From assembly GCA_016650295.1 (NCBI GenBank), contig JAENWA010000098.1, positions 1 to 64,000 on the forward strand: a stretch of DNA of 64,000 nucleotides, written 5' to 3'. The DNA is from Desulfuromonadales bacterium (GTDB lineage: Bacteria > Desulfobacterota > Desulfuromonadia > Geobacterales > Pseudopelobacteraceae). Below the pieces are notes generated by a model. The model had not been told where the DNA came from. It did no database searches and saw only the letters and a program-made list of their open reading frames with translations. The position numbers were made by a program, and so were the translations under genes. Shown in pieces: positions 7,353-64,000 of this stretch (within the stretch, counting starts at the first letter, position 1; every line of letters starts with the position of its first letter).

Positions 7353-7358
7353 ACGACA

Positions 7359-8982: not shown

Positions 8983-8994
8983 TAGTCCATCCTC

Positions 8995-9699: not shown

Positions 9700-9811
9700 C
9701 TGTGTCAGCCTGTCTTCGGATGAATTATGCTCATCTGTATAAGTGAGCGAAGCGTAGTATATTAAACACAACTTAGTTATAAGTTCAAGTACGAAATCGA
9801 AGGCGGTTTAT

Positions 9812-9842
9812 AAAAAAACCCGCCGGGTTTCCGGCGGGGTTG
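9812..9842 (-). terminator. rho-independent terminator of the CoA-transferase gene
   Basis: Read leftward, AACCCCGCCGG pairs with CCGGCGGGTT across a four-base loop and is followed by seven T. It lies 25 bases beyond the CoA-transferase stop. Confidence 0.9.
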
Positions 9843-9866
9843 GAGTAACCAAAACCAGTATAAAAA

Positions 9867-11471: not shown

Positions 11472-11678
11472 CTCCTACCTCCTTGTTTGTTTGTGGTGTC
11501 TACAGGCACATTCTGTCTTGAAAATCCTGTTGCGAAAAGAAACATTAATGGTAAAATATATAATTATTCCAACAAGTTTGATGCGAATTATTTGTTAATC
11601 AAACAAAGTAGAACCGGATTTTACTCATCCGACCCTGTTTAGTCAAGACAAAATGTATACAGAATACAAGGGGGCGCT

Positions 11679-11969
11679 TCAACTCTCGAAGTCAACTGCC
11701 GCAATAGAGGAGCAGACCGCTTTCATGTGCGGCACTACTTCTCCGGCGTGGTAGGGGTGTACCTGATACTCCTGAAGGTCGGCCAGGGAGTCAAATCGGG
11801 TTATGAGGGCGATATCGTAGGATCGTTCGGAACGGATAACATCGATGCCCGCTTCCAGATGACGCAACTGCGCAATCTGCCCTTGCATGCTCAATAGCTT
11901 GGCGTGCGTTGCCGCAAGGTTTTCCGTAGATGGATCGGATAATTTGAACAGAACGATATGTGTAACCAT
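11679..11969 (-). CDS. Dabb-domain (stress-responsive A/B barrel) protein
   Basis: The 96-residue product starts MVTHIVLFKLSDPSTEN and contains YDIALITRFDSLADLQEYQVHPYH, the typical Dabb ferredoxin-like barrel, which forms dimers. Members have varied or unknown functions, from plant stress proteins to small cyclases. AAGGAGA lies just before the ATG. It is alone between the CoA-transferase promoter region and a small membrane-protein gene. Confidence 0.88.
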   Translation of the reverse strand: MVTHIVLFKLSDPSTENLAATHAKLLSMQGQIAQLRHLEAGIDVIRSERSYDIALITRFDSLADLQEYQVHPYHAGEVVPHMKAVCSSIAAVDFES

Positions 11970-12080
11970 GGTGCGTGTCTCCTTGACTGGTCTGTTTGAT
12001 TGCGGTTTCTGAAGTTTCTGGTATACATCGGCATTCCGCTGCTGTCAATGCTGCCGAAAGCTGTCCGAAGACACAACTGA

Positions 12081-12422
12081 TTACCTGCCGGCTGTTTCGG
12101 GCGACTCTCCTTCATCACGGCCTTTCATGCAGTCGACAATCGCGAAAACCCACACCAGGGCAAAACCCGCCAGCAACATTTTACCAAGTCCGGCTACTCC
12201 GTGCAGTGCCGTCAGTACGTCAGTTGTGTTGATCCCGCCGGAGACGGCCTGGGCCGCAATAACAGGCGCCAGTCCTTTCAACAGAACAAACAGCGCCAGC
12301 AGCATGAGCAGATTGACCAGCATGATAATGGCGACGCCGGCCACCTTGCGCCCAAGGTAGAGGTGTCCCAGCCCGGGCAATACCAGGGCAGTGAGCAGCA
12401 GGGCGGTTTTCCTTCGATTCAT
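12081..12422 (-). CDS. small TM2-like membrane protein
   Basis: From the ATG at 12422 the product is 113 residues with three hydrophobic segments; the first ends in LPGLGHLYLGRKVAGVAI, which resembles the GxGxFYLG turn of TM2-type proteins. Start choice follows an ATGA overlap with the stop of the upstream inositol-phosphatase gene, indicating translational coupling. A longer frame to 12521 merely runs through that gene. Function unknown. Confidence 0.75.
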   Translation of the reverse strand: MNRRKTALLLTALVLPGLGHLYLGRKVAGVAIIMLVNLLMLLALFVLLKGLAPVIAAQAVSGGINTTDVLTALHGVAGLGKMLLAGFALVWVFAIVDCMKGRDEGESPETAGR

Positions 12423-13219
12423 TCGGCAGCCTCCCGGTTTGGTGTTGTCAGCATGGCAACCATGCTGTCGTGGATCAGGCCATTGCTGGCGACAATGCGG
12501 TGGTTGAAGATATCGTAGCACGATCCGTCAAAGGTTGTTACGACCCCGCCGGCCTCCCGGACCAGCAGCACACCTGCCGCCACATCCCAGGCTTTCAGCT
12601 TCAGCTCCCAGAATCCGTCAAGCCTGCCGGCGGCAACATAGGCCAGGTCCAGTGCGGCTGCACCGGCCCTGCGAATACCGCGGGCAGCCTTCTGAAAAGC
12701 GATGAAGTTGCTGAAGTTGTTGACCGGGTCGCTGGCACAATCATACGGGAAACCGGTTCCCAGCAGGGTGTCCCGCAGGGGAGAGCGGCTGGAGACGTGC
12801 AGACGGTTACCGTTTAAGAACGCGCCACCGCCGCTGGTTGCCGTGAAAAGCTCGTCGTGCATCGGATTATAGATTACGCCGGCCACCAGCTCTCCGGCCG
12901 ATTCAAGTCCGATCGACACGCAGAACCAAGGGAAGCCGTGGGCATAATTGGTCGTGCCATCCAGGGGGTCGATAATCCAGCGAAAGGAAGAACTGCCCGG
13001 CGGATATTCTCCCTCTTCGGCAACGATTCCGTGATCCGGGAAATTCCCGAGGATATGTTCGACGATCAAGCGTTCTGACTCCTGATCGACCTCAGTCACC
13101 AGGTTCTTGTCACCCTTCATCATCACATCCAGTGTCGATGCAAAACGGTACTGCTGGTATCTTCCTGCGATCCTGGCCGATTCAACGGCGGTGTCAAGGT
13201 ACTGCTGCCAACTGGACAT
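12419..13219 (-). CDS. suhB: inositol-1-monophosphatase family protein
   Basis: The 266-residue product (MSSWQQYLDT, GGAGG 5 bases upstream of 13219) contains the Mg-dependent phosphatase motifs: GIVAEEGEYPPG (metal Glu), WIIDPLDGTTNYAHG (Asp84 and Asp87) and the late LKAWDVAAGVLLVREAGG with metal-binding WD. The family dephosphorylates inositol-1-phosphate or related sugar phosphates; the E. coli SuhB member also acts in rRNA antitermination. The first start at 13231 lacks a ribosome site. Coupled to the downstream membrane-protein gene. Confidence 0.9.
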   Translation of the reverse strand: MSSWQQYLDTAVESARIAGRYQQYRFASTLDVMMKGDKNLVTEVDQESERLIVEHILGNFPDHGIVAEEGEYPPGSSSFRWIIDPLDGTTNYAHGFPWFCVSIGLESAGELVAGVIYNPMHDELFTATSGGGAFLNGNRLHVSSRSPLRDTLLGTGFPYDCASDPVNNFSNFIAFQKAARGIRRAGAAALDLAYVAAGRLDGFWELKLKAWDVAAGVLLVREAGGVVTTFDGSCYDIFNHRIVASNGLIHDSMVAMLTTPNREAAE

Positions 13220-13330
13220 GGAATCCTCCAAAACTCTAACTTAGATTATTCGTGGCACGCGTGTTCCATTAATCCTAGTAACGGGATTACGCCATTTCCT
13301 GCTCGATGGCAGACTGACAAATATTGAGGT

Positions 13331-16144: not shown

Positions 16145-16148
16145 AAAG

Positions 16149-16181
16149 ACACCTGTGTGTAGTTTAGTTACACACCAGTGT
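16149..16181. promoter_or_regulatory. dyad just upstream of the sigma-54 activator
   Basis: TGTGTA and TACACA half-sites, with matching outer ACAC/GTGT bases, face each other around a central TTTAG, about 5 bases from the activator ATG at 16144. The symmetry suggests an operator, possibly for autoregulation, but the distance to the start is short and it could be only an mRNA hairpin. Confidence 0.35.
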
Positions 16182-16208
16182 AGCGTTTGAGCCGGTGGGT
16201 GTCAATGG

Positions 16209-16354
16209 GAAGGTTGAAGGTTGAAGGTTGAAGGTTGAAGGTTGAAGGTTGAAGGTTGAAGGTTGAAGGTTGAAGGTTGAGGGTTGAAGGTTGAGGGATG
16301 AGGGATGAGGGATGTAGAAAGTGCGTGGTGCATCTCTCATCTCTCAACCCTCAT
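16209..16354. repeat. GAAGGTT heptamer array ending in an inverted repeat
   Basis: About ten uninterrupted GAAGGTT units run from 16209, then degenerate units (GAGGGTT, GAGGGAT three times) to about 16314. After a short spacer, CATCTCTCATCTCTCAACCC at 16331-16350 is nearly the reverse complement of the degenerate part. The array fills the gap between the 613-residue gene and the sigma-54 activator. No spacers of the CRISPR kind are present. Confidence 0.9.
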
Positions 16355-16360
16355 CTGGTG

Positions 16361-18202
16361 TTAATTAAGCCCCTTGCGGAACTGGTACAGGTCGGCCATA
16401 TCCAGATCGTTCTTTTCGTAGTATTCCCGCTCCAGTTCCTCGACATAGAAACGGTCCAGCCCCGAGTTTTCGAGGAAGTCCTCGCGCAGGCCGACATTTC
16501 GTTCGGCAATGATGGCGGGGAGCAGGGAATGAAGATACATGGCTTCTTTCTTGATGGTAAAGATGGTCTCGTTGAAAAGATGGATGGGGATGTCGCTCTT
16601 TATGCGTTTCTTGGTTTTGAGCTCTTCGTTGACCTCTCGCCGCAGGGCTTCCTGGTTGGTTTTGGTATTGAACTTGGAATAGAAATTACGGATACGGTCC
16701 CGCACATGCTCCAACAGGATGATGGATAAACGCTCCTCCTGATCGATCTCCATGAGCTTCTCGGTCAGCCGCTCTATGGAACCGGTATTGTTCTCGATAG
16801 CGGCCAGGCCATCCAGCAGAGTCATTACCTTGCGGCGCCCGAAACGCCCGAGATAGGCATTCTCAAACAATTCACGTATGAAAAGCTCTACAAAGCAGCC
16901 TTCCCTGAGATTTTCAAAGGCGGCCCGGTGTTCAAGCAGACCGTTCAGCATCTCCTCGGTGACCCGTACGTTCTCCATGAAGGCCAGCTGACCGACCAGA
17001 TTTGAGACGCTGTCAAAACGGTCCAGATAGGTAATTACATAGGAAAAACCATCCAGAAGCGCCGGGTCGGCGCCATCGCGGATCTTCTCGTCGCACACCT
17101 TGCTGGCGCTCAGCATCAGCTGGTCGAAGCCGTGATCACGGTTCTCCATGGCCTTCTTCTTTGCAGTAATCAGGGCCAGCATGTCATCGCGGTCAATCAG
17201 GCTTTCAATATCCTTCTCACGAAGAAAGATCCCTTCCATCACTTCACGGGTGGCAGAGATATAATCAAGCTCAGACTGACTGACCAGACTGAGCCCCTTT
17301 TTAAGCATCTCATCCAGTGTGTAAAAGAGGGCTCCAGGAATCTTGTTGCGAACCGAAAGCGTTTTCAGACGGGTCAGGCGGGCATTATCAACGTGACTGA
17401 TCTCGCCCTTGGCATTACAGGCAAGCAGAATGTTGCGGTACTCATCCACGATGCGCTTGTTGGCCGGGTGGCGGTACATGACATCTATACGCATGCGTTC
17501 CTGCTGGTAGCGATCGATTTGATAGCGGGCAGCCACGTTTGTCAGGAGGGTAAAATCCTCATCGCTGATCTTCTTGTTGCGGAAATACAGCTGGCGGAAC
17601 AGGTCGCGGTACTCCCGGTGACCGCGGTTGATCAGCTTGATGATGAAGAACTGGGCCTCATCGTCCTTGAGAAGCGGGAAAAGCTCGGAAATCAGCTCAT
17701 CATCTCGTTCCTCCCCAACAGCAACGGAACGCTTGATGACCTTGCCGATGCATTTGACCAGTTCTTCCTGCTGGTTTTTAAGTTTGCGGGGGAGTCGCTT
17801 GGAGTGGACGAAGAAGAAGTAGTTGCAGACCGCATTGCCCTCGAAAAATATATTTTCAAAACTTTCGCTGCCGGTGGTGCGGTCACTGAAGCGAACCGTG
17901 CCGGTCGCTTCGTCGGCGCGGGCGCCATACATTACCAGGCGGTTGATGATTTCCGGCTTTACCATGTCGGGCGAGGGCTGATCGACACCAAACATGTACT
18001 CGCAGAAATAACCGCCATTACCCTGGTAAGAGATCCCCTCCGGAGCGACAACGAAATCGTTGCCGGGGGAAAAGATGCGCAGGCGATCTTCCTCCTGGAC
18101 GATGTTGAAGAAATAGCGCTGGTAGGCCTCGGTTCCCACCACCATGGCAAAGTATTCGAGCAGGTCGCCGGTCTGTCCGTGGAGCCTGATGTCTTTATGC
18201 AT
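16361..18202 (-). CDS. conserved protein of unknown function (613 aa)
   Basis: The long product begins MHKDIRLHGQTGDLLEYFAM and is predominantly helical and charged, with no signal peptide and no recognised catalytic motif. An N-terminal beta-rich part (to about 140) precedes a helical body with leucine- and glutamate-rich segments. It recalls an uncharacterised Geobacter family, but I cannot name it with certainty. It follows the MBL hydrolase by 20 bases on the same strand and precedes the GAF/sigma-54 activator, suggesting a conserved signalling set. Function unknown. Confidence 0.7.
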   Translation of the reverse strand: MHKDIRLHGQTGDLLEYFAMVVGTEAYQRYFFNIVQEEDRLRIFSPGNDFVVAPEGISYQGNGGYFCEYMFGVDQPSPDMVKPEIINRLVMYGARADEATGTVRFSDRTTGSESFENIFFEGNAVCNYFFFVHSKRLPRKLKNQQEELVKCIGKVIKRSVAVGEERDDELISELFPLLKDDEAQFFIIKLINRGHREYRDLFRQLYFRNKKISDEDFTLLTNVAARYQIDRYQQERMRIDVMYRHPANKRIVDEYRNILLACNAKGEISHVDNARLTRLKTLSVRNKIPGALFYTLDEMLKKGLSLVSQSELDYISATREVMEGIFLREKDIESLIDRDDMLALITAKKKAMENRDHGFDQLMLSASKVCDEKIRDGADPALLDGFSYVITYLDRFDSVSNLVGQLAFMENVRVTEEMLNGLLEHRAAFENLREGCFVELFIRELFENAYLGRFGRRKVMTLLDGLAAIENNTGSIERLTEKLMEIDQEERLSIILLEHVRDRIRNFYSKFNTKTNQEALRREVNEELKTKKRIKSDIPIHLFNETIFTIKKEAMYLHSLLPAIIAERNVGLREDFLENSGLDRFYVEELEREYYEKNDLDMADLYQFRKGLN

Positions 18203-18222
18203 TACTGCCCTCCTGCCGTGCT

Positions 18223-18987
18223 TTAGGTGGTGCGGATATCAAATGTCATCCCGTCCCAGGCAAACTCGCAGCCCGGCGGAAGCCTTGCGCCATCGGCAAA
18301 GAGTACATCGTGAGAGAGATGGGTAAGAACGGTACGTGCCGGTTTCAGCGGTTGTGTCACGGCGATGGCCGATTCAATGTTGAAGTGGAACGGATGCGGG
18401 GTCCAGCGCAGTCCGTCGATAACCAGCACATCAAGCCCTTTCAACAGTGCCGGCGAAGGTTCGGGAATGCTGCTGCAGTCGGTCAGATATGCAAAATTAT
18501 CGATCCGGTATCCCAGCGACCGGGTCCTGCCATGCTCAAGGGGAACCGGGGTGATGGTCAGCCCGAACAGCTCGAATGATCCGTCAACTTCGATTGGTTG
18601 CAGTAAGGGAGTATATCCCGAACCGTCATGTTCATGAAAGATATATCCGAATCCGGCCTCAAGCGTCTCCAGAGTGGCACGGGACCCGAAGCAGGGGATA
18701 ATCTCTTTATGCAGAAAGTGAAAGCCGCGCAGATCATCGATTCCGTTGACATGGTCGGCGTGGGAGTGGGTGAAGAGTACTGCGTCGATCCGCTCGATGT
18801 CTTCGCGTAGCGCCTGGAAGCGCAGATCCGTCGAGGCGTCAATCAGGATGTTTCGTCCGTTGTGGCAAATAAGAAGAGAAGCCCGTGTCCGCTTGTCTTT
18901 CGGGTCATCCGAAGAGCAGACCCGGCAGCGGCATCCTACCATCGGCACACCGGTCGATGTCCCGCTACCAAGTATCGTGATCTTCAT
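18223..18987 (-). CDS. MBL-fold metallohydrolase (PhnP-like)
   Basis: The 254-residue protein has the metallo-beta-lactamase signature THSHADH (His74, His76, Asp78, His79), an early LGSGTSTGVPMVGCRC segment with CxCxxC cysteines typical of PhnP-type phosphodiesterases, and later LTDCSS and LTHLSHD motifs. The likely activity is hydrolysis of a cyclic phosphate or similar phosphodiester in the cytoplasm. It is the first gene of a leftward set with the 613-residue unknown. Confidence 0.88.
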   Translation of the reverse strand: MKITILGSGTSTGVPMVGCRCRVCSSDDPKDKRTRASLLICHNGRNILIDASTDLRFQALREDIERIDAVLFTHSHADHVNGIDDLRGFHFLHKEIIPCFGSRATLETLEAGFGYIFHEHDGSGYTPLLQPIEVDGSFELFGLTITPVPLEHGRTRSLGYRIDNFAYLTDCSSIPEPSPALLKGLDVLVIDGLRWTPHPFHFNIESAIAVTQPLKPARTVLTHLSHDVLFADGARLPPGCEFAWDGMTFDIRTT

Positions 18988-48671: not shown

Positions 48672-49544
48672 ATGATAGACAGATCATTGCCGGTAAGCGG
48701 TCCCGTCACATTTGAAGAACTGAAAAAGACGAACGAACATGGTGCGGAATACTGGAGCGCCAGGGAGCTCCAGCCCTTGCTGGGGTATAGCCAGTGGCGG
48801 CGTTTTGAAGATGCAATTAACAGAGCTATGACTTCATGCGGACAGTCGGGAAATAATCCCGATTATCATTTTGCCGGCGCCGGCAAAATGATCGCAACCG
48901 GCAAAGGGGCGCTTCGTGAAGTTACGGATTTCCATCTTTCACGTTTTGCCTGCTATCTGATTGCCCAGAACGGCGACCCGCGCAAGCAGGAAATTGCCGC
49001 TGCGCAGAAGTATTTTGCGATACAGGCCCGCCGTCAGGAGATGTCTGATGCCCTGGCGGCTGATCTTGAACGGCTGGAGATCAGGAAACAGACCAGCGAG
49101 GAGTTCAAGGCGCTTTCCGGAGCCGCACGCGAGGCTGGCGTACAGGACAGGATGTTCGGTATTTTTCACGATGCCGGTTACAAGGGATTGTATGGAGGAC
49201 TTGGAAATGAAGGGATCAAACAGCGCAAGGGTATTCCGAAAAAGGACAACCTGATGGACCGGATGGATACCACCGAACTTGCCGCCAATCAGTTCCGCAT
49301 GACGCAGACGCGCGACAAACTCGCCCGTACACCGGTGAAAGACCAGCAGCAGGCAATCCGGACTCATGAAGCGGTCGGCAGGGAGGTTCGCGAGGCAATC
49401 AAGCGTATCGGCGGTGCCATGCCGGAGAATATCCCGCCTGCCGAGCATATCAGCCAGGTTGAGAAGCGAATCAAGACCACGCCGCCGTTGCTTGAGCTTG
49501 ACGGCAATGATGCGCAAGGGTTGGGCGGGACGGATGGGGAGTGA
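48672..49544 (+). CDS. dinD: DinD-like DNA-damage-inducible protein, copy 1
   Basis: The 290-residue product aligns along its length with E. coli DinD as I remember it: YWSARELQPLLGYSQWRRF, SRFACYLIAQNGDPRKQEIA, YFAIQARRQEMSDAL, GYKGLYGGLGNEGIKQRKGI and TTELAANQFRMTQTRDKL. E. coli DinD is a LexA-regulated inhibitor of RecA-promoted strand exchange. No LexA-like box was seen upstream. Residues HFAGAGKMI are encoded by a 28-bp perfect palindrome. The C-terminal LELDGNDAQGLGGTDGE recurs at two nearby relics. Confidence 0.88.
   Translation: MIDRSLPVSGPVTFEELKKTNEHGAEYWSARELQPLLGYSQWRRFEDAINRAMTSCGQSGNNPDYHFAGAGKMIATGKGALREVTDFHLSRFACYLIAQNGDPRKQEIAAAQKYFAIQARRQEMSDALAADLERLEIRKQTSEEFKALSGAAREAGVQDRMFGIFHDAGYKGLYGGLGNEGIKQRKGIPKKDNLMDRMDTTELAANQFRMTQTRDKLARTPVKDQQQAIRTHEAVGREVREAIKRIGGAMPENIPPAEHISQVEKRIKTTPPLLELDGNDAQGLGGTDGE
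48865..48892. repeat. 28-bp perfect palindrome inside dinD copy 1
   Basis: The sequence reads the same on both strands, centred between 48878 and 48879 (core GCCGGCGCCGGC). It encodes the YHFAGAGKM segment of the protein. Its outer part CATTTT/AAAATG is shared with palindromes at 50134 and 50371. Confidence 0.95.
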
Positions 49545-49746: not shown

Positions 49747-50196
49747 ATGACAAAACAGGTTAAACCGTATAGTTCAGAATTCCCTGAAGTCCTCACTATT
49801 ATCAAGGATGGGCGTTCCCGTGCTTTCCAGGCCGTAAATATCGCGCTGATAGAAACCTACTGGGCTGTTGGCGATTATCTGTCACGTAAGGTTGCCACGT
49901 CCGGTTGGGGAAAGGGCGTCGTCCGCGAACTGGCTGATTGGCTGCTGGTCAATGCTCCGGATGCAAAAGGTTTTTCAGCTCCCAACCTCTGGCGGATGAT
50001 GCAGCTTTATGACACATATGCCGGTAATGAAAGACTCGCACCACTGGTGCGAGCATTAAGGGATGGATTGAATATTGTTTTAAAGTGCTCACGTATGGAG
50101 CCTGTTTCAAATGAGGACAAATCTTCAACGACAGACCATTTTCCCGGCGCCGGGAAAATGGTCCGAGAGACAAACCAATGGATAATCATCAGATAA
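49747..50196 (+). CDS. DUF1016 (YhcG) N-terminal domain protein, truncated
   Basis: From the ATG at 49747 (GAGGAAAAC before it) the product is 149 residues. The first 105 match the DUF1016 N-terminal DNA-binding part (IEKTYWAVGDYLS-type IETYWAVGDYLSRKV, GWGKGVVRELADWL, FSAPNLWRMMQLYDTY, LAPLVRAL). The usual C-terminal PD-(D/E)xK nuclease is missing. From about residue 106 the sequence becomes unrelated, including DHFPGAGKMV from the palindrome at 50134, so a rearrangement has replaced the end. Probably inactive as a nuclease. Confidence 0.75.
   Translation: MTKQVKPYSSEFPEVLTIIKDGRSRAFQAVNIALIETYWAVGDYLSRKVATSGWGKGVVRELADWLLVNAPDAKGFSAPNLWRMMQLYDTYAGNERLAPLVRALRDGLNIVLKCSRMEPVSNEDKSSTTDHFPGAGKMVRETNQWIIIR
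50134..50163. repeat. 30-bp perfect palindrome before dinD copy 2
   Basis: Symmetric about the centre between 50148 and 50149 (core CCCGGCGCCGGG, outer CATTTT/AAAATG). In the truncated DUF1016 frame it spells DHFPGAGKMV, the same motif as in DinD, and it ends 14 bases before the dinD copy 2 ATG. Confidence 0.95.
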
Positions 50197-51032
50197 TTAA
50201 AATGAAAACCCATTTTGACGGCTTAAGCCACACCATCCCTGATGAAAATGTTGAGTTCTGGTTCGCCAGAGAGCTTCAGGAACCACTTGGTTATGTTAAA
50301 TGGGAGCGCTTCAACGATGCCATACAAAGGGCAATAGTCTCCTGCGAAACATCGGGTACAGATCCGAACAACCATTTTCGTGGCGTCACGAAAATGGTCA
50401 AGTTGGGAAGTGGTGCTGAGCGTGCCATCGAAGATTATATGCTCACCCGCTACGCTTCCTACCTCATCGCTCAAAACGGTGACCCACGCAAGGAAGCCAT
50501 TGCTTTTGCCCAAAGCTATTTCGCCATTCAGACCCGCAAGCAGGAGTTGATTGAAGACAGAATGCGCCTGCAAGCCCGATTGGAAGCTCGGGAACGTCTC
50601 AGGGAATCAGAGAAGACACTCTCCCAGAACATATACGAACGTGGGGTCGATGATGCCGGGTTTGGACGGATTCGTTCCAAGGGCGATGCAGCTCTATTCG
50701 GAGGCAACACAACCCAAGACATGAAAAGCAAATTCGGGATTACCCAAACCCGTCCGCTGGCTGATTTCCTGCCAACGCTGACTATTGCTGCTAAAAACCT
50801 TGCAACGGAAATGACCAACCATAATGTTCAGCAGGACGAGAAGTTATACGGTGAGTCCACTATTACCCGTGAGCATGTTCAAAATAATCAGAGCGTCCGC
50901 GATATGCTTGGTCAACGGGGGATTCAGCCGGAACGGCTGCCGCCTGAAGAGGACATCAAAAAGCTGGAACGAAGGGTGAAGTCAGACGAGAAGAAACTGG
51001 AAAAGCAATCCGGTAAGCTGCCAGACAACTGA
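50178..51032 (+). CDS. DinD-like protein, copy 2
   Basis: The 284-residue product is a second full-length DinD relative: FWFARELQEPLGYVKWERF, NHFRGVTKMVKLGSGAERAI, MLTRYASYLIAQNGDPRKEA, FAQSYFAIQTRKQELI. The middle and C-terminus differ more from copy 1, ending EKKLEKQSGKLPDN. It starts inside the 3' end of the DUF1016 frame. The HFRGVTKM residues are encoded by a near-palindrome at 50371. It is probably another RecA-modulating or antirepressor-like protein; function unproven. Confidence 0.85.
   Translation: MDNHQIIKMKTHFDGLSHTIPDENVEFWFARELQEPLGYVKWERFNDAIQRAIVSCETSGTDPNNHFRGVTKMVKLGSGAERAIEDYMLTRYASYLIAQNGDPRKEAIAFAQSYFAIQTRKQELIEDRMRLQARLEARERLRESEKTLSQNIYERGVDDAGFGRIRSKGDAALFGGNTTQDMKSKFGITQTRPLADFLPTLTIAAKNLATEMTNHNVQQDEKLYGESTITREHVQNNQSVRDMLGQRGIQPERLPPEEDIKKLERRVKSDEKKLEKQSGKLPDN
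50371..50398. repeat. 28-bp near-perfect palindrome inside dinD copy 2
   Basis: Arms ACCATTTTCGTG and CACGAAAATGGT are perfect inverted repeats around GCGT. Only one pair near the centre (G-T) breaks the symmetry. It encodes HFRGVTKM at the same position as the palindrome of copy 1. Confidence 0.93.
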
Positions 51033-51243: not shown

Positions 51244-53646
51244 TTGATAAATCGTGTCACCCCCGGCATCTATGAAGCACTTATCGATGAATTTCTCCGC
51301 GATGCTCTGGCTCTGCGACCTGAATTAAGGACAGTATTTGGAAAGATCGATCCGGAGGAACAGCCCGCCAAATATGCATCATTTGTTTCAAATGTGCTTG
51401 AGCAAGCCTTGCGGGAAGAGTCCGATTCAGAAAAACGGCTGGCACTCTGCAATTGGATTCTTCGTCACGTTGCCAACGAACCGGGCAGAGGACACCTCGA
51501 AAAGTATCGTTTGGTCACGCAACAAAAGCCAATCCTCCTTGAAATTACCCCCCCAAATTACGGCACATCGGGTATCCCGCGCCCCCACACTCCTCTGGCA
51601 GAAAGCAGCCTCTTTACCGGTTCGCCCCAGGAACCACAACTGGCCCATGAACTCCATGAAGAGATGCGTTCCGCTGACGCGGTAGAGATCCTGGTGTCAT
51701 TCATCAAATGGTCTGGACTGCGCCTTTTGATGCCTGCGTTTGAGGATTTGCGCGATCGGCATGTGCCGGTGCGCCTGATCACAACTTCCTACATGGGGGC
51801 CTCTGATGCACCGGCTGTCGAGTGGCTGGCGCGGATGCCGAATGTTGAGGCTCGTATCTCCTACGATACCGAGCGGACCAGACTGCACGCCAAGGCGTAC
51901 CACTTCCGGCGCAACAGCGGCTTCTCCACGGCCTATATTGGTTCGGCCAATATGTCCCATGCGGCCATAACCAGCGGCCTGGAATGGAATCTTAAGGTCA
52001 CGGCCCAGGACATGGGACATATCCTCGAAAAGTTTACGGTCGAGTTTGAGACCTACTGGAACAGCCGTGAGTTTGTTCCGTTTGATCCTGCAAATCCGAC
52101 TTTCTTTCGGACCGCCATTGATCGCGCCCGCAATCCCCAGAAGAACGGCCCGGCAGTATTCTTCGACCTGCGGCCGCACCCGTTTCAGGAACGAATCCTT
52201 GAGGCGCTAGATCGGGAACGGAGCGCACATGACCGCTGGCGCAATCTTGTGATAGCCGCTACTGGTACCGGCAAGACCGTGGTTGCCGCCTTTGACTTCA
52301 AACAGTTCTATGAGAAGAAACAACGGCAGGCCCGGATTCTGTTTGTAGCTCACCGACTGGAAATTCTCCAGCAGGCACAAGGTACCTTTCGCAATGTTCT
52401 TCGTGACCAGAACTTTGGTGAGTTACTGGTTGGTCAATTTCAGGCTAATCGCCTGGAGCATCTGTTCTGTTCCGTAGGGATGCTGGCGAGCCGGCGCCTG
52501 TGGGATCAGGTTGGCAGAGACTTCTACGACTATATTGTAATCGATGAAGCCCATCATGGCACCGCGTCCAGCTATCGTCCGATCTTCGACAACTTTGCCC
52601 CGCAGATACTCCTAGGCCTGACTGCCACACCGGAGCGAATGGACGGTGACAATGTAGCGGCAGATTTCGGCAACCGTTTTGCTGCCGAGATTCGTTTGCC
52701 AGAGGCATTGGAGGAAAAGCTTCTCTGCCCCTTTCACTATTTCGGCGTGGCCGATCCGATTGCCATTAGTGGCGAACAGTTCTGGCGCAACGGCAAGTAT
52801 GATGCCTCCGTACTGGAAAACGTCTATGTGCTGGATCATGCCCGGGCCAAACAGCGCGTTGATGCCATTATCGCGGCGCTTACCCGCTATGAACCTGACC
52901 TGACCGTCATCAAGGGGATCGGGTTCTGCGTTACTATCAGGCATGCCGTCTTTATGGCGGAGCAGTTTACCCATCGGGGGATACCGTCCGGCGCCTTTGT
53001 CTCCGGCGTTGAAGATGTCCGCTGTCAAGAGCTGCTAGAGGACCTGAAGACGGGACGGCTCACGTTCCTCTTTACCGTCGACAAACTGAGCGAAGGTGTT
53101 GATGTCCCGGAGGTGAACACAGTTCTCTTCCTGCGTCCTACAGAGAGCCTGACTGTCTTTCTGCAACAGTTGGGGCGCGGCCTGCGACATGCACCGGGGA
53201 AGGATTGTCTCACAGTGATTGACCTCGTCGGCCAGGCCCACCGACGCTACCGGGCAGACACCAAACTCAAAGCTCTTATGCCCCGACACCGTTACTCCGT
53301 CGACAAAGAAGTAGAGCTTGACTTCCCCCATCTCCCCGCCGGCTGTTCAATTCAGCTCGACCGCCTCTCCCGGCAGTACGTCCTGGAGAACATCCGCGAG
53401 AACTTCGGCAGGTTGGCCGTGCAGGTACCCGACCGGCTCCAGACCTTCACCAGCGAGACCGGACAGGAACTGACCTTCGGCAACTTCATTCGATACCACG
53501 ATTACGAACCGGAAGTGCTACTTCTAAAAGAATCATGGTCGGAGTGGAAAGCAAAGGCGCAACTGGGACCGATTCCCATTGATCCTGATCTGGCGCGACT
53601 TAAGAAAACCCTGCTGCGGGCGGCATTCATTAACGGGCCGCAGTAA
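51244..53646 (+). CDS. PLD-nuclease/SF2 helicase, N-terminal part (interrupted by in-frame TAA)
   Basis: From TTG at 51244 the 800-residue product has a phospholipase-D-like nuclease domain (HAK at 215-217, GSANMS at 233-238), then an SF2 helicase with Walker A ATGTGKT (339-345), DEAHH Walker B and late HQLGRGLRH-type QQLGRGLRHAPGKD motif VI. After the TAA at 53644-53646 the same frame continues into a typical DUF3427 C-terminus. PLD-helicase-DUF3427 proteins are common in defence islands and are presumed to cut foreign DNA. Activity here may be lost unless the stop is read through or an error. Confidence 0.82.
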   Translation: MINRVTPGIYEALIDEFLRDALALRPELRTVFGKIDPEEQPAKYASFVSNVLEQALREESDSEKRLALCNWILRHVANEPGRGHLEKYRLVTQQKPILLEITPPNYGTSGIPRPHTPLAESSLFTGSPQEPQLAHELHEEMRSADAVEILVSFIKWSGLRLLMPAFEDLRDRHVPVRLITTSYMGASDAPAVEWLARMPNVEARISYDTERTRLHAKAYHFRRNSGFSTAYIGSANMSHAAITSGLEWNLKVTAQDMGHILEKFTVEFETYWNSREFVPFDPANPTFFRTAIDRARNPQKNGPAVFFDLRPHPFQERILEALDRERSAHDRWRNLVIAATGTGKTVVAAFDFKQFYEKKQRQARILFVAHRLEILQQAQGTFRNVLRDQNFGELLVGQFQANRLEHLFCSVGMLASRRLWDQVGRDFYDYIVIDEAHHGTASSYRPIFDNFAPQILLGLTATPERMDGDNVAADFGNRFAAEIRLPEALEEKLLCPFHYFGVADPIAISGEQFWRNGKYDASVLENVYVLDHARAKQRVDAIIAALTRYEPDLTVIKGIGFCVTIRHAVFMAEQFTHRGIPSGAFVSGVEDVRCQELLEDLKTGRLTFLFTVDKLSEGVDVPEVNTVLFLRPTESLTVFLQQLGRGLRHAPGKDCLTVIDLVGQAHRRYRADTKLKALMPRHRYSVDKEVELDFPHLPAGCSIQLDRLSRQYVLENIRENFGRLAVQVPDRLQTFTSETGQELTFGNFIRYHDYEPEVLLLKESWSEWKAKAQLGPIPIDPDLARLKKTLLRAAFINGPQ

Positions 53647-54375
53647 ATAGCCTTGTTGCGCGCGGTTCTTGATAAGGTTTCCCAAGGGGCAAATGATGAA
53701 GCGTTCTCCCTTGCTGGTGATTCTGTCATGTCCATCTACTATCGGATCTGGGGTGCCACGGGGAACAATCTTGGCATTACCTCCCTTGAGGATGCGTTCC
53801 GACGGCTGGCCATAAATCCGTCTATCCTTGCCGATCTGGATGAAATCTTACGTTGGTCACTCGACTCGACGGAGGTCAGCGGACAGAGACCGGCATTGCC
53901 ATTTGCCTATCCGCTTGAAATGCATGCCCATTACGGCGGTAAAGAGATCCAGGCTGTGTTTGGCAAGGCTACCCTTGAAACCGCTGGGCAAACTGGAGTT
54001 GGTTTGTTTCATTTCGCTGCAGTAAAGACTTATGCTTTACTTGTCACCTTTCAGAAAACTGAAAAAGAGTTCTCGCCGAGTACAATGTATGCCGATTACC
54101 CGATCAGTAGGGAGTTGCTGCATTGGGAATCACAGGCGAATACCGCGCAACATCACAATGACGGGCAGAATCTGATTCACCATTTAGAGCGGGGCTATAA
54201 GATATTGGTTTTTGCCAGAAGCCTGAAAAAGCGGAACGGGGTTACTGTGCCGTTCACCTATCTTGGGCCGGTGAAGCGAGTCAGTTACGAGAGCGAGCGG
54301 CCGATCAAGATGGTGTGGAAGTTACAGCATCAGATGTCTGTTGAGATGTTTGAAGATAATCGGAGAGGTGGGTAA
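53647..54375 (+). pseudogene. DUF3427 C-terminal part of the split helicase
   Basis: Directly after the TAA the same frame stays open for 242 codons: LLRAVLDKVSQGANDEAFSL, then the DUF3427-typical PFAYPLEMHAHYGGKEIQAVF, FSPSTMYADYPISRELLHWE, HHLERGYKILVFARS and PFTYLGPVKRVSYESERPI. No convincing start with a ribosome site lies at its beginning (a TTG at 53653 is possible). It is the missing last quarter of the PLD-helicase, separated by one stop codon. Confidence 0.75.
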
Positions 54376-58593: not shown

Positions 58594-58685
58594 TGGTGGT
58601 ACAGGCAGCAAGGTGTGGTGTATAGAGTGGATGGAGATGTATCCCGTCACATCGATATGAGATTCGCATTTGGAGGGAATCAATC

Positions 58686-59087
58686 ATGAAACTGGATTTC
58701 GGTTCTTACGAAAAGGCTTTAACCTCGCTGCAGCGGGTGCTGGAACGCAGCAGTACGGTTCCGGGAGACGAAGACATTCGCGATGCCTGCATCCAGCGTT
58801 TCAAATACACCTATGAACTGGCCTATAAGATGCTCAAGCGCCAACTGGAGCAGGAATTACCATCCCGCGAGGAACTTGATCAGCTCCCTTTCAAGGAGCT
58901 GATCCGGGTCGGCGCGGAGCGTGGTCTTATCAGCGTTCCCGAACGTTGGTTCGACTACCGCGACAAGCGCAACATCACCTCACACACCTACGACGAAGAA
59001 AAGGCCAGAGAGGTCTTTGCCGTCCTGGCAGATTTTGCGGCCGATGCCGCCGACCTGCTGGCCCGCCTGAAGACCCGCCATGCTTGA
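58686..59087 (+). CDS. HEPN-family partner of nucleotidyltransferase (HepT-like)
   Basis: The 133-residue all-helical protein (MKLDFGSYEKALTSLQRVLE) is a HI0074/HEPN-type protein with the R-x4-H motif in RDKRNITSHTYDEE. HEPN proteins are RNases in MNT/HEPN toxin-antitoxin modules, where the MNT partner adds AMP to block the HEPN toxin. It overlaps the MNT gene by 8 bases. Here the HEPN gene comes first. Confidence 0.85.
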   Translation: MKLDFGSYEKALTSLQRVLERSSTVPGDEDIRDACIQRFKYTYELAYKMLKRQLEQELPSREELDQLPFKELIRVGAERGLISVPERWFDYRDKRNITSHTYDEEKAREVFAVLADFAADAADLLARLKTRHA

Positions 59088-59385
59088 CCTGACACCGGAA
59101 CACCTGGTCGAGGTCCGCCGCATCCTGCAACTCCACGTCCCCGGCCGCACGGTGCGCGCCTTCGGCTCCCGCGTGCAGGGAACCGCCAAGCCCTTTTCAG
59201 ATCTCGATTTGGCAATTTTGGGCGAAACCCCGCTCGACTTCCGGCAACTGGCCGCCCTGAAGGACGCCTTTGTTGAATCGAATCTCCCCTTTCGGGTGGA
59301 TGTGGTGGATTGGGCGACGACCAGCGAGGCGTTTCGGGGGATTATTGAGGGGGCGTTTGAGGTTGTTGTGGTAGGGAATTGTTGA
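59080..59385 (+). CDS. MNT-type minimal nucleotidyltransferase
   Basis: The 101-residue product has the nucleotidyltransferase motif GSRVQGTAKPFSDLDLAI, with GSR and the DxD metal-binding pair. Minimal nucleotidyltransferases of this kind (MntA) act as antitoxins by AMPylating HEPN toxins. It overlaps the HEPN gene and probably neutralises it. The GC-rich composition fits the host. Confidence 0.87.
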   Translation: MLDLTPEHLVEVRRILQLHVPGRTVRAFGSRVQGTAKPFSDLDLAILGETPLDFRQLAALKDAFVESNLPFRVDVVDWATTSEAFRGIIEGAFEVVVVGNC

Positions 59386-59477
59386 GATTTGTTACCATAA
59401 GCAGCCTGTTTATTCGATAATATTGTCTGGACGTGATGTGTAAAGTTACCGGAAATGTGTACGACGGGGATGCGACG

Positions 59478-59891
59478 ATGAAGATAAAAAAAGTTAAAGC
59501 ATCGAACGCCACATTCCGCGACTGGGCGCCGGATATTGACGAATGGCCGAGTTCATGGATGGGTGTCAAGGAAGATCTCGAATACGGCAGGAAGATCCTC
59601 CCCTATTTTGAGCATTTTCTCCAGGAGTTGTTTGAAGAAGGTCTTTCCAGGAAAACCTTTGTCCAGTATCGGGATAACCTCTGGCTTCTTGGCGGATCGA
59701 TCATCACGGGGGTCTCTAATTTCGAGGAATACAATGAGGACCCGCTTGACAAGCTGTATGATTCCGTAGTGTCTGATGGTATCCTCCCTGATCATTATGA
59801 TGATATGAGCGAAACCGAAATGAATGCCTTTGTCAGGATGTGTCGCAGGTTTGAAAAGTTTCTTCATCAGCACTATGGGTCGCTTTTATGA
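59478..59891 (+). CDS. conserved protein of unknown function (137 aa)
   Basis: From the ATG at 59478 (MKIKKVKASNATFRDWAPDI) the product is acidic and soluble, with FEHFLQELFEEGLSRKTFVQ and LYDSVVSDGILPDHYDDMSE. Helical, no motif recognised, and no signal peptide. It precedes the TPR-like gene by 16 bases and is probably co-transcribed with it. Function unknown. Confidence 0.6.
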   Translation: MKIKKVKASNATFRDWAPDIDEWPSSWMGVKEDLEYGRKILPYFEHFLQELFEEGLSRKTFVQYRDNLWLLGGSIITGVSNFEEYNEDPLDKLYDSVVSDGILPDHYDDMSETEMNAFVRMCRRFEKFLHQHYGSLL

Positions 59892-59907
59892 AGAACCGGA
59901 GAGGGAC

Positions 59908-60762
59908 ATGAAGATGAAAAAGACCGCAAAAAACGCCCGTACAAACAACATGGCAGTTATTGAAGAAGTCGGCAACCAGGAGTGGCGATTCGCGGAGATT
60001 CCGTATGAAACGGAGATGAAGTTCAACGACCTGCTCGAAGCGCGGGATTATGGCAACGTCTCCCCGGCGGAGATGGAGCGGCAACTCAGGGAACTGCTGC
60101 ATGAGGCCCCCAACTTTATTGACGTGTATCATCACCTGGCGATGCTTCTCGATCAGCGCGGGAAGGGTCAGGAGGCCCAATTGCTGTGGCAGCAGGCGGT
60201 GAACATCGGCATGCAGTGTTTTATTGAACAGTTCAGCGCCGCCGGTAACAAGCTGGAATGGGGCTGGCTCGAAAATCGACCCTTTCTGCGAGCCTACCAT
60301 TCCCTTGGTCTTCAACACATGGAAAGCGGCAATACCGAGATGGCGCTGTCCATATTCAGAACGATCATGTCTCTGAATCCGGGCGACAACCAGGGTGTCC
60401 GTGCACTCGTGGTTGATTGCTGTCTGAAGCTGAAGATGTACAAAGATGTCCTGACAGTATGCAAGGATTCGCAAGATGACCACATGGCTGAAACAGTGTA
60501 CGGCCGCGTCCTGGCACTTTTCGCACTCAAGCGGATGACCTCGGCGGAAAAGGCGCTCAGACAGGCGCTTACTGTTTTGCCGCTGGTGGCGGCAGAAATC
60601 GTGAAAGCCCGTCACCCGCGACCCAAGAATATGGATGAGGGGCGTTATACCGTCGGCGGCGCCGACCAAGCCTGGTACTACTGGCAGGAAGCGGGAGAGT
60701 ACTGGGTGCAGGTGCCGGGGGCGATTGAGTTTGTCAGGGAGGTATTGAAGGGTCGGGGGTAG
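59908..60762 (+). CDS. tetratricopeptide-like repeat protein
   Basis: From the ATG at 59908 (GGAGAGGG before it) the product is 284 residues. It begins with a lysine-rich segment and then helical repeats (NFIDVYHHLAMLLDQRGKGQ, AYHSLGLQHMESGNTEMALS, NPGDNQGVRALVVDCCLKL, YGRVLALFALKRMTSAEKAL) typical of TPR scaffolds. No enzymatic domain. It lies directly upstream of a C5 methyltransferase/MORC pair and follows an unknown gene. Confidence 0.72.
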   Translation: MKMKKTAKNARTNNMAVIEEVGNQEWRFAEIPYETEMKFNDLLEARDYGNVSPAEMERQLRELLHEAPNFIDVYHHLAMLLDQRGKGQEAQLLWQQAVNIGMQCFIEQFSAAGNKLEWGWLENRPFLRAYHSLGLQHMESGNTEMALSIFRTIMSLNPGDNQGVRALVVDCCLKLKMYKDVLTVCKDSQDDHMAETVYGRVLALFALKRMTSAEKALRQALTVLPLVAAEIVKARHPRPKNMDEGRYTVGGADQAWYYWQEAGEYWVQVPGAIEFVREVLKGRG

Positions 60763-60883
60763 ACGTGATCAAACATGTGGCTTTATTTGTTGAAAATTCT
60801 TGGAATACGACTACAATCACTCGATATTTTCAAGCTCGTCTGAATGTGAAATTGATGTTATTAACGGAGACATAATCCCCAGT

Positions 60884-61999
60884 ATGCCAATCAGAGTTTT
60901 CGACTTTTTTTCAGGATGTGGCGGAACCAGCGCAGGGTTCAGAAATGCAGGTATGCTTAATACCTTTGCGCTGGATATTGACGCCGACTCTGCGAAAACT
61001 TTTAGTACAAACTTTCCTGGCGTACCTTTTCTTCGACAAGATATTTCCCAAGTCTCAACTGAGTACATTCGTCCATTAGTTGAAGCATGCGGTAACGATC
61101 CGCTGCTTTTTTGCGGATGTGCTCCCTGTCAGCCTTTTACCAAACAACGAACAAGTCCAAAACAAGACGATGTAAGAGTGCCGTTATTAGGCGAATTCCA
61201 GCGGTTTGTCGGACACTATAGCCCCGAATATGTATTTGTCGAGAATGTTCCGGGAATGCAAAAGGTTTGGAAGTCGGATGGAATTTTTCAAAAATTCACT
61301 GATTTCTTGAAGACATCAGGGTATTCAGTGGATTTTGGAATTGTTGCATCTCAAGGCTATGGAGTCCCACAGCAAAGAAGACGTTTGGTCCTGATTGCCA
61401 GCCGTGTAGGCGAAATAAGTCATCCTGAAAAAACTCACGGTCCGGGAACCAATAATCTTCGCTTCTCTTCCGTTAGGGATTGGATCGGGCACCTTCCGCC
61501 AATAACTGCCGGTGAAGAACACGCCACTGTTTCTAATCACAGAGCTGCTTGTTTGTCTCAAGACAATATTGAGCGTATTGCTATGACGCCGCCGGGCTGC
61601 GGGCGTGAAAGCTGGTTACCTCATTTACAGCTTAAATGCCATAAAACCCATAATGGTCATACTGACGTATACGGTCGCATGCGATGGGATGAACCGGCCA
61701 GCGGACTAACCACACGTTGCATAAGCCTGTCAAACGGTAGATTCGGGCATCCGGAACAAAACCGTGCCATCAGTGTGCGAGAAGCAGCTTGTTTGCAGAC
61801 ATTCCCTGAGAGTTTCGTTTTTCACGGAAACCTGAATTCCAAGGCGCGGCAGATTGGCAATGCTGTTCCGGTGAAATTGGCCGAAGTTTTCGGAAGACAT
61901 TTTGTTGAGCATTTGCAACAGAATGTGAATAGGGTGACCAATATGCAGTCCCTCTATAATGTCGAGCAAACAGAAGGCGGTATCTATGGCGCGGTTTAA
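60884..61999 (+). CDS. C5 cytosine-specific DNA methyltransferase
   Basis: From the ATG at 60884 the product is 371 residues and contains all C5-methyltransferase motifs: I DFFSGCGGTSAGF (7-19), IV GCAPCQPF with catalytic Cys82, VI VENVPGM (Glu120), VIII QQRRRLVLIASR, and X RQIGNAVPVKLAEV. It methylates cytosine at an unknown site. The target-recognition region (about 190-270) is short. An in-frame TTG at 60800 would add 28 residues with no ribosome site. The stop overlaps the following GHKL ATPase gene by 14 bases. Confidence 0.92.
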   Translation: MPIRVFDFFSGCGGTSAGFRNAGMLNTFALDIDADSAKTFSTNFPGVPFLRQDISQVSTEYIRPLVEACGNDPLLFCGCAPCQPFTKQRTSPKQDDVRVPLLGEFQRFVGHYSPEYVFVENVPGMQKVWKSDGIFQKFTDFLKTSGYSVDFGIVASQGYGVPQQRRRLVLIASRVGEISHPEKTHGPGTNNLRFSSVRDWIGHLPPITAGEEHATVSNHRAACLSQDNIERIAMTPPGCGRESWLPHLQLKCHKTHNGHTDVYGRMRWDEPASGLTTRCISLSNGRFGHPEQNRAISVREAACLQTFPESFVFHGNLNSKARQIGNAVPVKLAEVFGRHFVEHLQQNVNRVTNMQSLYNVEQTEGGIYGAV

Positions 62000-64000
62000 G
62001 ACACGGGCCAGAGCGCTTGACATGCTGGGCCGCCAACAGATTGCCGGTATTCCCAATGCAATCAACGAGCTATTCAAAAATGCCCATGATGCCTATGCTG
62101 AGTGTGTCGTTGTAGACTATTTCCGTCAAACTCGCCTGTTTGTTTTACGTGATGACGGCATCGGCATGAGCGAAGATGACTTCCGCAACAAATGGCTTAC
62201 ACTTGGCACTGAAAGCAAAGTTCTTGAGTCCCAGTATGTACCCCCTAATCGCACCCCGCGACCTGTTTTGGGTGAGAAGGGAATCGGTCGCCTTTCCATA
62301 GCCGCAATCGGCAGTCAAGTGCTTGTTCTCACGAGAGCTTGTCGCAACGAAACATATTACGATCTGGTATGTGCTTACATCCACTGGGGGATTTTCGAAT
62401 GTCCCGGCATTGATCTCGATGAGATTGAAATTCCAGTCAGAACATTTCCCGAAGGGCAGATTCCTACAAAGGCTGATATTGACGAAATGGTATCGGAGTT
62501 TGCGGCAAATGCTTCGAGCCTGAGTACGCGAAACTCCACTACTGGAAAGATCGTTGATCGTATTCAGTCGGACATTGCCCTATTGCTGGGAAACATTGAT
62601 CCGGCTAGGTTCTCAGTTGGTAATTTGTCTCTGAAAGATAATGGGCAAGGTACTCACTTTTATATCATGCCTACGGATGAATCGTTGGATGCTGCTATTG
62701 ATGAAAGAATGCCTGGAATGGGTGCCCAAGACCGGCTTCCTCCTCTTCAAAGCTACCTACTTGGCTTTTCAAATACGATGAAAAAGGCAATTGGAAATGA
62801 TGTAATCAAAGCATCCTTTTTTGACCACGAGATAGATAGCTCTGTTAAGGACTTAATTGGGGGAGATGAGTTCTTTTCGCACGAAGAATTTGCAGTAGCT
62901 GATCACCATATTGAAGGACAGTTTGACGAATACGGACAGTTCAAAGGCAGCATCAATATTTTTGGTCAAAAAGAACACAAAAACCACATTATAACTTGGT
63001 TAAACAAAACCGGTCAGCCTACGGAATGTGGTCCATTCAAAATCAGTCTCGCAATAATCCAACCAGAACGAAAAACAACAAATGTACCTGAAGAGCTTCA
63101 CTCAATGCTTTCCGCAAAAGCTACTCGACTTGGTGGAGTCTATATTTATAAGGATGATATTAGAATTTTGCCTTACGGAAGTTTTGACTATGATTGGTTA
63201 GGCATTGAATATCGCCGCACCAAGAAAGCAAGCTACTATTACTTTTCGCATCGTAATCTTTTCGGTTATGTAGACATTTCTCAAAAATTTAACGGTAATC
63301 TCAAAGAGAAAGCTGGTCGTGAAGGTTTTCGTGAAAATAGGGCTTATCGTCAACTTCGCGATATGTTGACCAATTTCATATTGCAAGTGACAGCTGATTT
63401 CTTTCGTGAAGATTCACTAAATCCTGAATGGCGTGATTATGCAGAAGCAAATGCACGTCGTTACAAAACATTACAGCAAAGAGAACAGCGCCTCAAAGGT
63501 TCCAAAGAACAATTTATTAAAGATCTCGACAGTGTTTTTGTACGCCTGGATAAAGGAGAGCCACTAAGGGAAGCAAATGAGTTATTGACTAATATTGCTG
63601 ATAATTATCGCCGTGCCTTTCGTAGCAAAGAAACAAACAGTACCGTGGTTGCATTTGTCGAGGCGGAACGAAATGCAAATGCTGAATTTGATAAATGGCG
63701 TTCTTCCTATGAAATAAAACGACCAAAGGATGCTGCGTTTAAAAAAGGGATAGAGGCGGAATGGGAAAAGTATCAGAAGCTGTTTGCTGAACTTGATGCG
63801 CATCTTTTTCAGTCTACGCGGCAACAATTAAAACAAGTGGCTATGGACGCTCAAAGAACCTGTGCAGTTCTCATTGACCAACGGCAAAGTTTTGAAGCGA
63901 GCCTGAATGATTTGATTCGACTTAAAGAACAGGAGTCTACTACAGAGGGTCGTACAGTACGCAAAACCGTCTTAGAATTCCAAAGGAAAGTATCCAAAGT
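61986..64000 (+). CDS. MORC/MutL-like GHKL ATPase (cut by window edge)
   Basis: The frame opens at an ATG overlapping the methyltransferase stop (AGAAGG upstream) and stays open to the window end, giving 671 residues so far. It has the GHKL ATPase motifs: NAINELFKNAHDA (Glu28, Asn32), DDGIGM (Asp57-Gly-Ile-Gly) and GEKGIGRLS (Gly96-x2-Gly99-x-Gly101). A second alpha/beta domain follows (about 330-480) and then a charged coiled-coil-like region. This matches bacterial MORC-type ATPases that accompany C5 methyltransferases in restriction-modification-like modules (Iyer, Abhiman and Aravind). The 3' end is outside. Confidence 0.85.
   Translation, partial: MARFKTRARALDMLGRQQIAGIPNAINELFKNAHDAYAECVVVDYFRQTRLFVLRDDGIGMSEDDFRNKWLTLGTESKVLESQYVPPNRTPRPVLGEKGIGRLSIAAIGSQVLVLTRACRNETYYDLVCAYIHWGIFECPGIDLDEIEIPVRTFPEGQIPTKADIDEMVSEFAANASSLSTRNSTTGKIVDRIQSDIALLLGNIDPARFSVGNLSLKDNGQGTHFYIMPTDESLDAAIDERMPGMGAQDRLPPLQSYLLGFSNTMKKAIGNDVIKASFFDHEIDSSVKDLIGGDEFFSHEEFAVADHHIEGQFDEYGQFKGSINIFGQKEHKNHIITWLNKTGQPTECGPFKISLAIIQPERKTTNVPEELHSMLSAKATRLGGVYIYKDDIRILPYGSFDYDWLGIEYRRTKKASYYYFSHRNLFGYVDISQKFNGNLKEKAGREGFRENRAYRQLRDMLTNFILQVTADFFREDSLNPEWRDYAEANARRYKTLQQREQRLKGSKEQFIKDLDSVFVRLDKGEPLREANELLTNIADNYRRAFRSKETNSTVVAFVEAERNANAEFDKWRSSYEIKRPKDAAFKKGIEAEWEKYQKLFAELDAHLFQSTRQQLKQVAMDAQRTCAVLIDQRQSFEASLNDLIRLKEQESTTEGRTVRKTVLEFQRKVSK

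Follow-up and report, generated by a model that had tools for sequence, protein, structure and literature searches.

What does a DNA methyltransferase gene that runs straight into the gene of a MORC-like ATPase belong to, and what could it do? The question is raised by the right end of a 64,000-nucleotide stretch from a Desulfuromonadales bacterium (GenBank assembly GCA_016650295.1, contig JAENWA010000098.1; here called the window), which covers positions 1-64000 of a 149,177-bp contig in a 4.07-Mb genome. The original prediction, made from the letters of the window, read the pair as part of a probable defence module of restriction-modification (R-M) type that runs off the window edge. Read past 64000 on the same contig, the pair is real but belongs to a larger operon, encoding a C5-cytosine methyltransferase (MT), a paraMORC-type ATPase that is also a histidine kinase (HK), a response regulator (RR) and a Vsr endonuclease. 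What that reading missed is the phosphorelay half, namely the histidine-kinase core and the regulator.

Architecture of the operon

All four genes lie on the forward strand; in window numbering, the features are as follows.

60884..61999, + strand: C5-cytosine DNA methyltransferase, 371 amino acids (aa) (Pfam DNA_methylase, E 2.9e-53; TIGR00675 dcm above cut-off)
61986..64000 in the window, ending at 64955 (L002:1986-4955), + strand: HEF_HK paraMORC-type ATPase/histidine kinase, 671 of 989 aa in the window
62055..62381 (residues 24-132), + strand: N-terminal GHKL domain HATPase_c_3 (PF13589, 56.1 bits, cut-off 25)
62793..63275 (residues about 270-430), + strand: S5/transducer-like region (alignment, AlphaFold2 (AF2) secondary structure, Foldseek)
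63339..64000 (residues 452 onward), + strand: start of the helical/coiled-coil part (AF2 secondary structure), which runs into the HEF_HK helices past the window
64299-64499 (residues 772-838), + strand: HEF_HK domain (PF19191, 93 bits, cut-off 24.1, E 1.5e-26), with His782-Glu783
64647-64928 (residues 888-981), + strand: C-terminal HATPase_c (PF02518, 56.4 bits, cut-off 26.4)
64952-66562 (L002:4952-6562), + strand: response-regulator-like protein, 536 aa (Response_reg_2, PF19192, residues 15-159, 61 bits, cut-off 27, E 2.2e-16)
66549-67019 (L002:6549-7019), + strand: Vsr endonuclease, intact, 156 aa (Pfam Vsr, E 1.9e-30; TIGR00632, 149.8 bits, cut-off 97.85)

Successive genes overlap by 14 bp (MT/HK), 4 bp (HK/RR) and 14 bp (RR/Vsr). 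The first of these is the 14-base overlap noted in the original prediction, and the kinase frame, seen there to run off the window edge, is open to 64000 and closes at 64955. The ATG at 61986 is supported as the kinase start because the N-terminus is conserved in the relatives described below; an in-frame TTG at 60800 would lengthen the methyltransferase to 399 aa. Motifs IV (PCQ) and VI (ENV) of the methyltransferase are intact, and it is the sole PF00145 match in this genome. Its top solved-structure matches are to eukaryotic DNMT1 (E 2.8e-34), above M.HaeIII and M.HhaI. An Rfam search of the operon gave no match, and a promoter and terminator scan of it gave nothing above chance. The identity of the operon's parts is virtually certain.

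The ATPase joins a paraMORC half to a histidine-kinase half

A scan of genome contigs yielded 361 relatives, of which the best 80 by similarity to this kinase were used; residue counts come from an alignment of 82 kinases and 81 regulators. The GHKL motifs ELFKN, DDGIGM and GEKGIGR, reported from the start, are present in the kinase N-terminus, and the window-truncated frame of 671 residues matches HATPase_c_3 with an E of 1.2e-13 (Pfam). The ATP site of this domain, comprising the catalytic Glu28, Lys31, Asn32, Asp56 and the G-boxes, is invariant (82/82 kinases). The S5-like region holds conserved GGxYIYxDxIRILPYG and EKAGREG motifs, and the long coiled-coil part predicted earlier agrees with the helical structure that begins at residue 452 in the AF2 model.

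The description of the ATPase as MORC-like survives in part. A GHKL domain with an S5-like transducer is recovered by AF2 and Foldseek, but strict MORC membership was rejected: the S5 motif GhXhhpXXRhl (Iyer 2008) occurs in 0/82 kinases, though GHKL motifs with the catalytic Glu occur in 82/82. In 71/82 kinases the S5 motif is one residue longer than the strict MORC form (GVYIYKDDIRIL here). The protein has the features of the broad paraMORC class (Iyer 2008), with GHKL and S5 parts, no MORC motif, and an operon that includes a DNA methylase or nuclease.

The other half is that of a histidine kinase. NCBIfam histidine-kinase families match the C-terminus, and the N-terminal HATPase_c_3, the HEF_HK domain and the C-terminal HATPase_c together make up the domain set of HEF_HK-system kinases. 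His782-Glu783 of the HEF_HK helix is invariant, as are Asn891, Asn895 and Gly924 of the C-terminal ATP site (82/82 in each case). Foldseek searches with the AF2 model (pLDDT 81.5) liken the C half to an HK853-type histidine-kinase core and the N half to Hsp90 and to the ATPase module of SMCHD1 (E about 1e-8 to 1e-9), the alignments to Hsp90 and SMCHD1 spanning about 500 columns of the N half. The sequence profile of the kinase gives the same two halves, its N-terminus resembling MutL and HtpG. Because a full histidine-kinase core comes with a dedicated regulator partner, the mechanism differs from the one first proposed.

The regulator completes a candidate relay

The receiver residues of the regulator are likewise conserved: Asp23 and Asp116 are each found in 81/81 regulators, Lys178 in 79/81, and Thr or Ser at position 154 in 80/81. 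The residue set of a two-component system is complete, with the kinase His and boxes, the receiver Asp pocket, the Thr/Ser and the Lys. A phosphorelay within the operon is quite probable. AF2 models the regulator with confidence (pLDDT 88.2), and Foldseek matches the model to receiver domains at TM 0.63-0.65 by target, with formally weak E values of 4e-3 to 8e-3.

The remainder of the regulator is more distinctive. Its C-terminal domain (residues about 386-536) carries C407 and C412 in 81/81 sequences and D413 and R416 in 78/81, and neither sequence searches nor Foldseek with the AF2 model, receiver included, matched it to a known fold. Pfam, NCBIfam and PADLOC gave no nuclease match in regulator or kinase; PADLOC has no model for the regulator or the full kinase, and the kinase N-terminus is a weak match to a restriction-enzyme model. 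That a response regulator can act through an enzymatic output has a precedent in PorX (PMC12839542).

A role for the regulator as carrier of sequence specificity was also considered and rejected. The target-recognition region of the methyltransferase co-varies with the regulator at rho 0.29-0.39 and with the kinase at 0.38-0.60; since the former does not exceed the latter, there is no sign of specificity in the regulator. The methyltransferases of loci L013 and L050 have 82% of the target-recognition region in common, and their regulators are only 23-29% identical.

An obligatory trio and an optional Vsr

HEF_HK was found in 9/76 genomes and in 0/14 controls in a family-level search. The best 80 relatives come from many bacterial phyla and include four loci in bins labelled as archaeal (L024, L027, L032 and L080; bin labels as given). 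At the limits used, viral contigs held no regulator relative and phages and plasmids no kinase relative; regulator relatives were seen in two plasmids only. The MT-HK-RR order is nearly constant among the relatives, and the genes touch or overlap. Presence was counted by tblastn in the 45 loci with full flanks, open-reading-frame (ORF) calling having lost genes to antisense ORFs in GC-rich loci. By this count the methyltransferase is present in 45/45 and the regulator in all 45; L031, L055 and L056, too, carry the methyltransferase. MT-HK-RR is shown to be an obligatory trio; with the methyltransferase in every full-flank relative and the MT-HK order nearly always kept, the MT/kinase overlap is not due to chance. 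The earlier idea of an R-M-type module is upheld, and the operon does contain a Vsr gene to the right.

Vsr is known to nick DNA at T:G mismatches. In the present copy Glu32, Asp58, His71 and His76 are kept in the alignment to 1cw0, and we take them to be the counterparts of E25, D51, H64 and H69 in E. coli numbering of the E. coli Vsr. The genome's only C5 methyltransferase and its only intact Vsr both belong to this operon, as expected of a cognate methylation/repair pair. Among the 45 loci Vsr is present in 28 and missing from 17; a Vsr gene is also present in L064. Where present, it may stand downstream, between MT and HK, upstream of MT or on the opposite strand. On a quick maximum-likelihood kinase tree with long branches, its presence requires 12 changes against 13.8 +/- 1.6 for shuffled labels, and 113/500 shuffles need as few. 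Missing from 17/45, shifting in position and not following the kinase tree, Vsr looks like an accessory enzyme for repair of 5-methylcytosine (5mC), and its candidacy as an obligatory nuclease is disfavoured on the same three counts. At L013 a second C5 methyltransferase (4960-6216) and Vsr (3955-4419) are both found a few genes past the trio, so Vsr may serve either enzyme there.

These observations bear on a classical R-M arrangement, in which the MORC-like ATPase would help the nearby Vsr to cut DNA that lacks the mark. In its favour, the Vsr gene is intact here and translationally coupled, Iyer 2008 (PMC2292703) predicted that such ATPases and nucleases cooperate, and in Caulobacter cells without the cognate methyltransferase a Vsr-like protein (VsrA) causes DNA damage (PMC12907096). 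However, the scattered occurrence of Vsr just described, and the presence in this genome of exactly one C5 methyltransferase and one intact Vsr, as would fit an ordinary Dcm/Vsr repair pairing, make the arrangement improbable. The rightward search of the original prediction for a helicase, Vsr or other nuclease has a divided outcome: Vsr lies in the operon and no helicase was seen there, and while the foreseen nuclease gene exists, its supposed action on unmarked DNA is weakly supported. No restriction endonuclease of a type II R-M system stands beside the methyltransferase, Vsr being the sole recognisable nuclease in the operon. At several Vsr-less loci the closest neighbours are not nucleases either, for example PheS at L049 (plus a second methylase, of N6/N4 type, upstream), Kelch/fn3 at L080 and an integrase at L087. 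We conclude that the locus has no obligatory dedicated nuclease gene; an unlinked nuclease may exist.

Defence genes adjoin the trio in some relatives

At L030 the trio is flanked by the DISARM gene DrmMI on one side and by DrmA/DrmB on the other. Other relatives adjoin an HmaB-like gene (L085), a type III methylase (L039) or Snf2-type helicases, and further ones McrBC-like, SIR2, AAA_15 and HNH_2 genes; these neighbours were picked by hand and do not represent the loci at random. The whole MT-HK-RR trio of L030 lies within a DISARM-like locus (1554-18933), as it does at L034, with a similar case at L033, which suggests that the trio can stand in for the C5 methylase of DISARM or supplement it. 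In eight loci, mostly from Bacteroidota (L059, L061, L071, L077, L084, L090, L094 and L099), an OLD-like AAA_15/AAA_21 ATPase of ~600 aa stands beside the regulator, usually directly downstream, and is a possible extra effector.

An alternative is purely regulatory: the operon would encode a cytoplasmic two-component system, and its regulator would govern the transcription either of the methyltransferase gene or of host genes. The methyltransferase would then be an epigenetic or orphan enzyme, with no DNA being attacked. This alternative would explain the invariant His/Asp relay residues, agrees with the signalling that controls R-M systems proposed by Bellieny-Rabelo (PMC8011034), and suits trios with no recognised nuclease alongside, such as L080 and L087. 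Yet no known DNA-binding output domain was matched in the regulator, a MORC/Hsp90-like clamp sensor would be unusual in gene regulation, and the obligate linkage to a C5 methyltransferase (45/45) together with the DISARM, Hma and McrBC neighbours fits defence better. The regulatory alternative is thus unlikely, and defence is on balance the probable purpose of the operon.

The module lies in a low-GC accessory insertion

The three congeners compared (G001-G003) lack the module at this site, which therefore lies in an 8.5-kb accessory insertion:

58594..64000 in the window, of 58594 to about 67121 (8.5 kb): insertion, without counterpart in congeners G001 and G003

In G001 and G003, distances of 58 and 87 bp, measured between aligned ends, separate the major facilitator superfamily (MFS) gene (67122 here) from the two-component gene, whose end lies at 58593 in the window. 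The operon has a GC content of 0.418, against 0.51 to the left and 0.56 to the right; the module is a low-GC accessory insertion. To the right of Vsr stand the MFS transporter (67122) and then more ordinary genes. The original prediction was to be abandoned if housekeeping genes lay directly behind the pair or if the ATPase had no S5 part; the next genes are the regulator and Vsr, and an S5-like region is present.

Such a setting would also suit selfish addiction, in which the operon stabilises itself: once the methyltransferase is lost, Vsr or the kinase/regulator pair would be free to harm the host, and phage protection would be incidental. The low-GC insertion with its empty sites in congeners and the VsrA precedent (PMC12907096) speak for it, but the conserved relay and ATPase parts exceed the needs of an addiction pair, and we regard it as quite improbable.

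Several neighbouring features deserve description. Inside the insertion, 58686-59385 encodes a nucleotidyltransferase with a substrate-binding partner, an MNT/HEPN-type toxin-antitoxin pair. At the same site congener G002 carries different accessory DNA of about 1.9 kb, which includes a gene related to the window's nucleotidyltransferase at 59080-59385 and one that is transposase-like; the transposase-like gene lies between two near-identical GC-rich repeats (L115, G002:C52:2600-5600), hinting at a way in which the site gains genes. Further left, 51244-54375 holds an 800-aa ORF ending at 53646, a PLD-like/superfamily 2 (SF2) helicase by sequence reading, and directly after it a separate 240-aa DUF3427 ORF (Pfam 1e-21); the two look like the halves of a single defence-type helicase gene interrupted by a stop or a frame break. 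The genes at 48672-49544 and 50178-51032 are neighbours that resemble DNA-damage-inducible DinD/BRO-type proteins, again by reading of the sequence. With the helicase and the module, they give 48-67 kb the look of an accessory region that core genes interrupt.

Relation to described systems

The HEF_HK (PF19191) and Response_reg_2 (PF19192) families were defined by Bellieny-Rabelo et al. 2021, who found kinase and regulator genes linked in 91.6% of 644 regions; C5 methyltransferases were encoded upstream, and the commonest place of Vsr was immediately 3' of the regulator (PMC8011034). Carriers in that survey include Geobacter lovleyi, and the genera with Vsr include Geobacter; the rest of the regulator was given no known domain, and no functional experiment was reported (PMC8011034). 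The present operon shows no difference in kind from these elements, sharing the group 1 three-domain kinase, the adjacent Response_reg_2 gene, the upstream C5 methyltransferase and a Vsr directly 3' of the regulator. It belongs to an already published family; what is added here is the scatter of Vsr on the kinase tree, the archaeal-binned loci, the empty-site comparison and the AF2 model of the regulator. Searches of the open literature found no experimental paper on HEF_HK/Response_reg_2 systems.

Other comparisons are more distant. Iyer, Abhiman and Aravind (2008) described paraMORC GHKL families in operons with C5 methylases and Vsr (PMC2292703). The N-terminal GHKL and S5-like part, the missing strict MORC motif and the C5 methylase/Vsr operon are common to those proteins and this one, whereas this operon adds the kinase core and the regulator partner and has no SF2 helicase. 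The Shedu-type VcSduA (paraMORC3; PMC12137116) is a defence protein that also has a GHKL ATPase domain, whose ATPase Glu is required, but it ends in a PD-(D/E)xK (DUF4263) nuclease, and no DUF4263 match was found here at E<=1. The N-terminal 110 residues or so of the kinase match the BbrUII/HgiDII restriction enzymes (NF050001) at 67 bits, far under the 550-bit cut-off, with nothing past residue 118. As in E. coli Dcm/Vsr, a Vsr with the 1cw0 catalytic residues accompanies a C5 methyltransferase; in contrast to that pair, a kinase and a regulator are joined to them in one operon. In mechanism, the N-terminus is most closely paralleled by ATP-gated clamps of the MutL/Hsp90 type, and the C-terminus by ordinary two-component relays.

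Proposed function and significance

The interpretation to which most weight is given, held tentatively at a little under an even chance, is that of a mobile, horizontally acquired operon of methyltransferase, HEF_HK paraMORC kinase and Response_reg_2 regulator, with an accessory Vsr, which serves as a restriction-like defence unit under the control of its own phosphorelay. Gene order, domain content, the invariance of the catalytic residues, the obligatory trio, the optional Vsr and the insertion at a site otherwise empty are established; the functional steps are inferred. The methyltransferase would mark self DNA, and the N-terminal Hsp90/MORC-like GHKL and S5 part would form an ATP-gated clamp that senses DNA without the mark. 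Closure of the clamp would be transmitted through the 300-residue coiled coil to the HEF_HK helices, so that the C-terminal ATPase phosphorylates His782, and the phosphate would pass to Asp116 of the regulator. The regulator's C-terminal domain would then perform or trigger the anti-invader action, and Vsr would repair the T:G mismatches that arise by deamination of the methyltransferase's own 5mC. This chain of six steps is possible as a whole, if somewhat less assured than the general interpretation. That the C-terminal domain is an undescribed effector triggered by Asp116 phosphorylation, and MT-HK-RR a complete restriction system in which a His-Asp relay fired by a MORC-like DNA clamp takes the place of a restriction enzyme, is doubtful.

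Several points weigh against the interpretation. DNA sensing by the N-terminal GHKL part is suggested by analogy, and no nuclease motif is recognisable in the C-terminal domain of the regulator, so the effector step rests on elimination. At more than one relative locus the true effectors could be other defence genes in the vicinity, the relatives used were the 80 most similar to this kinase among 361, and the open literature yielded no restriction, phage or phosphotransfer study.

That Vsr is optional makes the regulator the candidate effector to test. With the trio obligatory and Vsr dispensable, what was a vague R-M association becomes a three-gene hypothesis that can be tested, for a family that is widespread in bacteria and extends to archaeal-binned loci. 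To our knowledge, the combination of a self-marking methyltransferase, a MORC/Hsp90-like clamp and a two-component phosphorelay is known nowhere else. The family offers a bacterial comparison for the eukaryotic MORC proteins, which likewise act with DNA methylation.

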